Origin: Litchfieldia sinesaloumensis | GTDB lineage: Bacteria; Bacillota; Bacilli; Bacillales; Bacillaceae_L | Length of the DNA stretch: 64,000 bases | Direction: 5' to 3' | NCBI RefSeq assembly: GCF_900156865.1 | Contig: NZ_LT732529.1 | Span: forward strand, 1,071,056-1,135,055 | Shown here: positions 31,051 through 31,100 of the stretch, piece by piece | Numbering within the stretch: position 1 is the first letter of the stretch | How the letters are laid out: every line of letters starts with the position of its first letter | Notes under the pieces: generated by a model | Seen by the model: the letters and a program-made list of their open reading frames with translations, nothing else | The model's database searches: none | Told to the model about the DNA's origin: nothing | Position numbers and translations under genes: made by a program

Positions 31051-31100
31051 GAACACTTGTTCCTTGCATTTATTATAAGAACAAGTGTTCCTTAAATCAA
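31051..31100 (-). promoter_or_regulatory. Sigma-A promoter with two LexA/SOS-type boxes
   Basis: On the minus strand, TTGATT (31095-31100) and TATAAT (31072-31077) are 17 nt apart. GAAC-N4-GTTC boxes lie at 31079-31090, inside the spacer, and at 31051-31062, just after the -10. The upstream box, read AGAACAAGTGTTCC on the plus strand, matches the Gram-positive LexA consensus CGAACRNRYGTTYC at 13 of 14 positions. The two boxes are exact reverse complements of each other, centred 28 nt apart. LexA should block this promoter until DNA damage. Confidence 0.8.

Follow-up and report, generated by a model that had tools for sequence, protein, structure and literature searches.

On the minus strand of the window, by which we mean the whole 64,000-nucleotide stretch of Litchfieldia sinesaloumensis DNA analysed here, lies a putative homing endonuclease gene (HEG) that is present as two open reading frames in different frames. 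The first piece (31027-30782) begins with an ATG start codon at 31027 and encodes an N-terminal helix-turn-helix (HTH) domain (Pfam HTH_7, E 2.9e-4, below the curated cut-off); it is 74% identical to the intact counterpart in Bacillus sp. REN16 (L017). The second piece (30776-30051) encodes a LAGLIDADG region (Pfam LAGLIDADG_3, E 1.1e-10) and a C-terminal HTH, and is 74% and 71% identical to the proteins of two congeners. The frame is broken just before LAGLIDADG motif 1, and the Asp residues of both motifs are present in the second piece. A first, sequence-only reading of this DNA had described a homing-endonuclease-like gene with HTH domains; the LAGLIDADG and HTH domains were indeed found, and the breakage had escaped it. 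Since the window copy is broken, only its relatives can be expected to act. The gene is free-standing, with its own promoter and ribosome-binding site, and no Rfam match at the gathering threshold was found between positions 28000 and 33000 of the window when we looked for an intron or intein setting. A gene for an MFS transporter (31270-32493) is divergently oriented, its start lying ~240 bp from that of the endonuclease gene.

The promoter, identified from the sequence, consists of a -35 element TTGATT (31100-31095) and a -10 element TATAAT (31077-31072) separated by a 17-bp spacer, followed by the ribosome-binding site AGGAGG (31043-31038), all on the minus strand. Two LexA-type boxes of the form GAAC-N4-GTTC accompany it: GAACACTTGTTC (31090-31079) lies in the spacer, against the -10 element, and GAACAAGTGTTC (31062-31051) lies near the expected start site. 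These 12-mers, on the same strand, are reverse complements of one another. Both the promoter with its two boxes and the close agreement with a LexA consensus had been claimed from the sequence, and both were confirmed at these coordinates: on the plus strand, AGAACAAGTGTTCC (31078-31091) agrees at 13 of 14 positions with CGAACRNRYGTTYC, which we take to be the Gram-positive LexA consensus. The two boxes are the only exact GAAC-N4-GTTC sites in the window. The 4.56-Mb genome holds 30 such sites, including these two, and 53 matches to the reversed control pattern; with one mismatch allowed, the window has 21 sites against 21.8 expected and hence no excess. By rough arithmetic, the presence of a second box within 28 bp is improbable at the genomic density (~4e-4). 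Single boxes carry no evidential weight, and counts in the window and the genome cannot separate signal from chance, whereas conservation can.

Intact HEGs that are 78% identical to each other are found in two congeners, Bacillus sp. REN16 (L017/L052) and Fredinandcohnia onubensis (L018/L053). The REN16 protein matches the PHROG 4645 endonuclease. A structure predicted for the F. onubensis protein (mean pLDDT 89, pTM 0.67) gave LAGLIDADG endonucleases as its best matches, namely the intein 7qsu (E 7e-11), I-Tsp061I and I-DmoI, when the best 50 of 114 fold matches at E 0.001 were considered; a sequence search of the PDB returned one weak, irrelevant match only. The catalytic acids are retained: among 93 apparently intact relatives, the motif 1 Asp is present in 92 (with one gap) and the motif 2 acids in all 93. 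Relatives also occur in 100 phage records and 6 plasmid records, none of which covers 80% of the query.

We examined the conservation of the boxes in homologous loci from two sources. Named genomes provided 52 loci, of which 40 were taken as the Bacillales set (one of these, L083, is titled Arthrobacter), whereas a search of 397 genomes from the order gave 104 genomes with a match at E 1e-15, other LAGLIDADG families included, the best 30 of which served as loci. The resulting 68-locus set includes the window, two duplicates having been taken out. By the criterion of the sequence-only reading, homologous genes without the boxes would have spoken against it; a box (GAAC-N4-GTTY or AAAC-N4-GTTC, within ~220 bp upstream of the gene) was found in 60 of the 68 loci, usually on the -10 element. 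Across 100 dinucleotide shuffles of the upstream stretches, the mean was 0.67 loci with a box and the largest number was 4, and equal-sized stretches elsewhere in the same loci contained a box in 0/68, 1/66, 3/67 and 0/68 cases. When the set was widened to include fragments and outlying families, 103 of 121 loci had a box within ~260 bp and 18 had none by the strict pattern. Around dif (see below) in 20 genomes without the gene, the same pattern was found within 1.5 kb in six. The 102 boxes give the profile AGAAC-R-N-W-T-GTTYG, after which TATAAT usually comes, most of its positions being conserved in roughly two thirds of cases. Both congeners that have an intact gene resemble the window in carrying two boxes 27-28 bp apart; one of those in Bacillus sp. 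REN16 is GAATGTATGTTC.

No box was found upstream of 23 relatives outside the Bacillales, comprising 12 loci from metagenome-assembled genomes (MAGs; ten with Patescibacteria-type names and two from unnamed bacteria) and 11 viral contigs, the upstream stretch being short in some. In the host, lexA is located at G000:C3:1068041-1068655 and its upstream region contains CGAACTTATGTTTG and related sites; upstream of uvrB there is only the looser CGAATATCAGTTCG, which the strict pattern misses. One box is common to subfamilies that are ~30% identical, and it matches the LexA sites of the host, which makes host LexA the likely regulator. The conserved boxes, the boxes of the lexA promoter and the result outside the Bacillales (0/23) together argue strongly for the LexA control of a free-standing LAGLIDADG gene proposed in the sequence-only reading, and control by the SOS response appears to be conserved among the Bacillales members of this LAGLIDADG family.

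Downstream of the gene, 171 bp past its end, lies dif, the chromosome-dimer resolution site (AGTAGACATAATATCTATTCTCAGAACT, 29852-29879, minus strand), whose proximity had also escaped the sequence-only reading. The dif pattern has a single match without mismatches in the 4.56-Mb genome, which is the window site; two further sites, with 2 mismatches, look like chance matches. Cumulative GC skew, computed over the window, is highest at 29894, placing dif at the skew switch. The window dif resembles the B. subtilis dif sequence printed in an excerpt of PMC3025954. RipX prefers the right half-site of B. subtilis dif, according to an excerpt of PMC5357621, and the arm of the window dif that corresponds to this half-site faces the HEG. 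This proximity recurs in relatives: a dif-like site with a score of at least 42 was found downstream of the gene in 113 of 121 homologous loci, always in the same orientation (113/113), and the remaining eight loci had none at this cut-off. A few weak sites may be chance, since 9 of 121 comparably sized upstream stretches, scanned on either strand, also reached the cut-off. As to distance from the end of the HEG match, 64 of the 113 sites lie within 200 bp, 47 at 200-520 bp and 2 farther; dif is more than 1 kb from the gene in L056 and L222. With a profile score of at least 25 and flanks of 1.5-3 kb where the contig allowed, two dif-like sites were found in none of the 68 loci and none at all in three. 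In the 12 MAG loci and 11 viral contigs outside the Bacillales, the narrow pattern found no dif-like site.

In F. onubensis, the site counted among the 113 (L053) is half a dif only. This half, AGTAGACATAATATCTATT, lies beside the intact HEG and is followed by unrelated bases, and a stretch of ~47 kb (L287:208 and L289:7133, ~G006:C16:61708-108633) extends between it and a full dif, as though an island had inserted there. The idea that the F. onubensis HEG had hopped off dif was dropped, as the ~47-kb stretch separates the half dif from the full one.

The HEG is found in several architectures. In architecture A, to which the window copy belongs, an HEG whose C-terminal HTH is like that of small terminase subunits is followed by dif. 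In L017 the resemblance spans residues 256-321 of 332 aa (PHROG 4044, E 4e-7), hinting at a phage origin of this HTH. In architecture B, the HEG is followed by a gene for a tandem Arc-like ribbon-helix-helix (RHH) protein and then by a dif whose outer arm has been replaced (CGCCCC-type or similar). Architecture C consists of HEG-RHH fusions, RHH similarity being detected in 14 HEG open reading frames; these fusions suggest that the RHH serves as a DNA-binding part of the enzyme. An RHH neighbour is present in 23 of the 68 HEG loci, counting the window genus, in which the RHH gene sits past dif. In the window itself this gene encodes a tandem Arc-like DNA-binding protein (29375-29713, minus strand) with two stretches matching the Arc-like repressor PHROG 3180. 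It is kept in 9/9 Fredinandcohnia genomes and lies just past dif in six HEG-less Fredinandcohnia genomes (L152-L157) as well as in G010, G006 and the window. In Fredinandcohnia the RHH protein, judging by this distribution, may have been retained as a host dif-binding protein. The conserved ~50 bp that precede the RHH gene were at one time taken for its promoter; this reading was abandoned once they turned out to be dif.

Comparison of occupied and empty sites located one end of the architecture B element. In the carrier G328 (L167) and the empty genome G096 (L145), the left flanks are 92% identical up to ~107 bp before the dif of the empty genome, and homology is back at dif offset +6. It returns at +6 also between G069 (L176) and G024 (L149), and at +4 between G243 (L179) and G050 (L151). 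Other architecture B comparisons showed no resumption inside dif (no match for L177; +30 or none for L180). The junctions at +4 and +6 indicate that one end of the architecture B element lies within dif, the outermost bases of one dif arm coming from the element. In Fredinandcohnia, the sequence left of dif differs among the seven relatives compared, so that no empty site could be defined by the left flank.

We then compared the dif alleles of carriers with those of genomes without the gene. The sequence AGTTWACATAATATATAT, which comprises the consensus RipX arm and the centre of dif, occurred in 40 of 66 non-carriers and in 3 of 60 carriers (3/46 after the same pattern filter, p 2.6e-9); counted by genus, the figures were 34/50 and 2/30 (p 3.5e-8). 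For this count, eight of the 68 loci gave no site (L053, L056, L062, L068, L078, L102, L121 and L134), and the 66 non-carriers were those found with the dif pattern at no more than 1 mismatch, 14 of 80 giving no match; three of the 66 (G002, G016 and G043) have a ~80-bit match to another LAGLIDADG family elsewhere in the genome. Carriers and non-carriers differ most at dif positions 1, 4, 5, 16 and 25, the change at position 16 (p 0.0013) lying in the centre. The full consensus dif occurred in 20 of the 66 non-carriers, beside 1 of 92 apparently intact genes and beside 5 of 21 decayed ones (p 5e-8 and 8e-4). From this count L078, L202, L224, L240, L243 and L244 were dropped by name, and L134 and L186 for lack of dif; "intact" was judged by open reading frame length, and L121, L216 and L217 pass despite stops or pieces, none of them having the consensus dif. 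The lone intact exception with a consensus dif, L204, is truncated in its RHH part, as was noticed after the count.

The association has exceptions. In L073, L081, L101 and L213, AGTTWACATAATATATAT persists next to a gene that appears intact, and dif is changed only farther to the right; a non-consensus dif is still found beside 16 of 21 decayed copies, including that of the window; 46 of 66 non-carriers deviate somewhere from the strict consensus; and the AGTAGA arm, typical of many carriers, also occurs in 5 of 66 non-carriers. The inner bases of the dif arms are almost invariant. A site altered in carriers and intact in non-carriers is thus seen as a strong statistical association, with these exceptions and with relatedness partly controlled. 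The allele pattern is what the enzyme's target should look like, if it is protected while the enzyme is active and free to revert later. The altered arm could in part be a footprint of the landing of the element rather than immunity; a footprint leaves the centre change at position 16 unexplained.

Several observations bear on the mobility of the gene. Its distribution is patchy, a match at E 1e-15 (other LAGLIDADG families included) being found in only 104 of 397 genomes of the order, and 21 of 113 copies are decayed. HEG and parC distances in 40 genomes are moderately correlated (Mantel r 0.40, p 0.001); for half of these genomes (20/40) the two genes have the same nearest neighbour. G316 and G336, which belong to different genera, share 92% identity in the HEG and 83% in parC, indicating transfer, and in G250 and G291 parC is 99% and the HEG 61% identical, indicating replacement. 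The suggestion of the sequence-only reading that this is a mobile gene is therefore borne out by patchiness, decay and inter-genus transfer.

In seven of 14 hand-picked pairs, DNA homology is lost inside the HEG or at its end and starts again either at dif +1 to +5 or 13-15 bp short of dif; the other seven pairs are not mosaic, homology being continuous there. In L133/L137, L131/L138 and L185/L133, 40-residue blocks of the protein are 56-100% identical up to about residue 170 and 17-50% identical thereafter, and DNA homology is back at dif +5 or 14-15 bp before dif. Among 32 architecture A copies, the dif arm difference tracks the C-terminal half of the protein (partial correlation 0.26, a modest value; -0.07 for the N-terminal half). 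We read the mosaics as the exchange of a cassette made up of the recognition half of the enzyme and the matching dif arm. Faster divergence of the C-terminal half is an alternative, and L117/L118, in which HEG blocks are 84-100% identical yet both arm and centre of dif differ, speak against strict co-exchange.

The conserved boxes, the location of the gene, the junction in dif, the altered dif of carriers, the homology breaks, the transfer between genera and the retained catalytic acids can be brought together in one model. In our judgement the family probably consists of LexA-controlled homing endonucleases that cut dif, home to it and are self-immune through altered dif arms, the window copy being a broken member. 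LexA bound on the -10 element would keep the gene silent. DNA damage, or single-stranded DNA arriving with a donor fragment, would activate RecA and lead to cleavage of LexA, and the endonuclease would then be made while recombination proteins are abundant. It would cut a dif whose RipX arm and centre match the consensus (AGTTWACATAATATATAT), and repair would copy the HEG together with the altered dif arm of the donor into the recipient, a form of gene conversion. As the altered arm would no longer fit the target, the carrier would be immune; the near-invariant inner arm bases presumably keep Xer recombination working. Once the gene decays, dif could go back to the consensus. We also lean, with less assurance, towards a wider picture: a family of SOS-controlled selfish endonucleases homing to dif across the Bacillales. 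Host dif sequences would evolve in an arms race with this family, and the C-terminal DNA-binding half and its matching dif arm would be handed on together as a specificity cassette, conferring new specificity and new immunity at once.

Could the gene instead be a domesticated host SOS function at dif, such as an emergency step for chromosome dimers after recombination repair, rather than a selfish one? SOS-type boxes and a fixed orientation at dif would be expected of such a function, 92-93 of 93 copies that appear intact still have the catalytic acids, and some loci within a genus share neighbours, which indicates that the gene can stay put. A host function is harder to reconcile with a match in only 104 of 397 genomes, the decay of 21 of 113 copies, an HEG more similar than parC between genera and replaced within them, and a consensus dif that is rarer where the gene is intact; we consider it unlikely. 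In the HEG-RHH architecture the junction falls within dif and one arm is replaced, and in F. onubensis ~47 kb lie between the half dif by the gene and the full dif; both observations would also be understandable if the HEG were cargo of an element integrating at dif via the host Xer recombinases (IMEX), the endonuclease then doing something else. Since none of the 68 loci scanned has two dif-like sites at the profile cut-off of 25, the element is only one or two genes long, and homology breaks inside the HEG and not at two dif sites, this too seems to us quite improbable.

The remaining alternatives concern the target and the boxes. With parC within kilobases in several carriers, one might suppose that the endonuclease cuts some other conserved site of the terminus region, dif being a landing place only. 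In the coordinates listed, the distance to parC varies from ~1 kb (G255) to ~250 kb (G385), whereas no more than 520 bp separate the gene from dif in 111 of 121 loci, and dif alleles, beyond mere location, go with the intact gene, which makes another target very unlikely. The palindromes, for their part, could be operators of a self-encoded repressor rather than LexA boxes, as the sequence-only reading had also considered: the HEG has HTH domains and often an Arc-like RHH partner, and some homing endonucleases repress their own gene. A GAAC-N4-GTTY box common to subfamilies that are ~30% identical, with and without RHH, that matches the boxes of the lexA promoter, together with 23 of 23 relatives outside the Bacillales without a box, renders self-repression the most improbable of these explanations, and LexA remains the favoured regulator.

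The family proposed here, LexA-controlled and homing to dif, resembles several known systems. With free-standing LAGLIDADG homing endonucleases (the PHROG 4645 phage endonucleases, I-Tsp061I, I-DmoI and the intein PI-PfuI) it shares two motifs with both acids, the predicted fold, a patchy mobile distribution and HTH add-ons; it differs from them in being chromosomal and associated with dif, not with an intron, intein or phage gene, in its LexA-type promoter and in the altered adjacent dif arm of carriers. IMEX such as CTXphi, VGJphi, TLCphi and the gonococcal island likewise live at dif and can alter one dif arm, and some, such as CTXphi, are SOS-responsive; in our family, however, no two flanking dif sites were found in the loci searched, the unit has one or two genes and the apparent mover is an endonuclease. 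LexA or cI-like control is known from SOS-controlled mobile elements such as prophages and SXT, in which, as here, a mobility gene is held down by the host damage response. Here the gene so controlled is an HEG, and the one- or two-gene unit contains no integrase or conjugation gene. The WhiA (DUF199) regulators of Gram-positive bacteria also combine a LAGLIDADG fold with an HTH (3hyi was a fold match). WhiA has lost the catalytic acids, whereas the present family keeps them and is a patchy gene.

A search of open-access papers yielded neither an endonuclease gene next to dif nor a homing endonuclease under LexA control, prior work elsewhere being possible, and the excerpts of PMC3025954, PMC5357621 and PMC8987985 do not describe an endonuclease gene at dif. 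If the model is correct, a selfish endonuclease at dif would find its target in nearly every host and would drive the evolution of dif. This site is required by most bacteria whose chromosomes are circular. The coupling to LexA would confine cutting to the period of induced recombination repair, and the family could illustrate how target specificity and immunity travel together in a single cassette, besides offering many natural pairs of endonuclease and target.

Two loci deserve separate mention. L083 is a Bacillales-type HEG locus, with a box and a dif-like site, on a contig titled Arthrobacter beigongshangensis REN13, and is perhaps a contaminant. The other LAGLIDADG_3 match of the window genome, L021 (G000:C3:2807704-2807934), has AAACGTATGTTC just upstream, possibly a LexA-type box.
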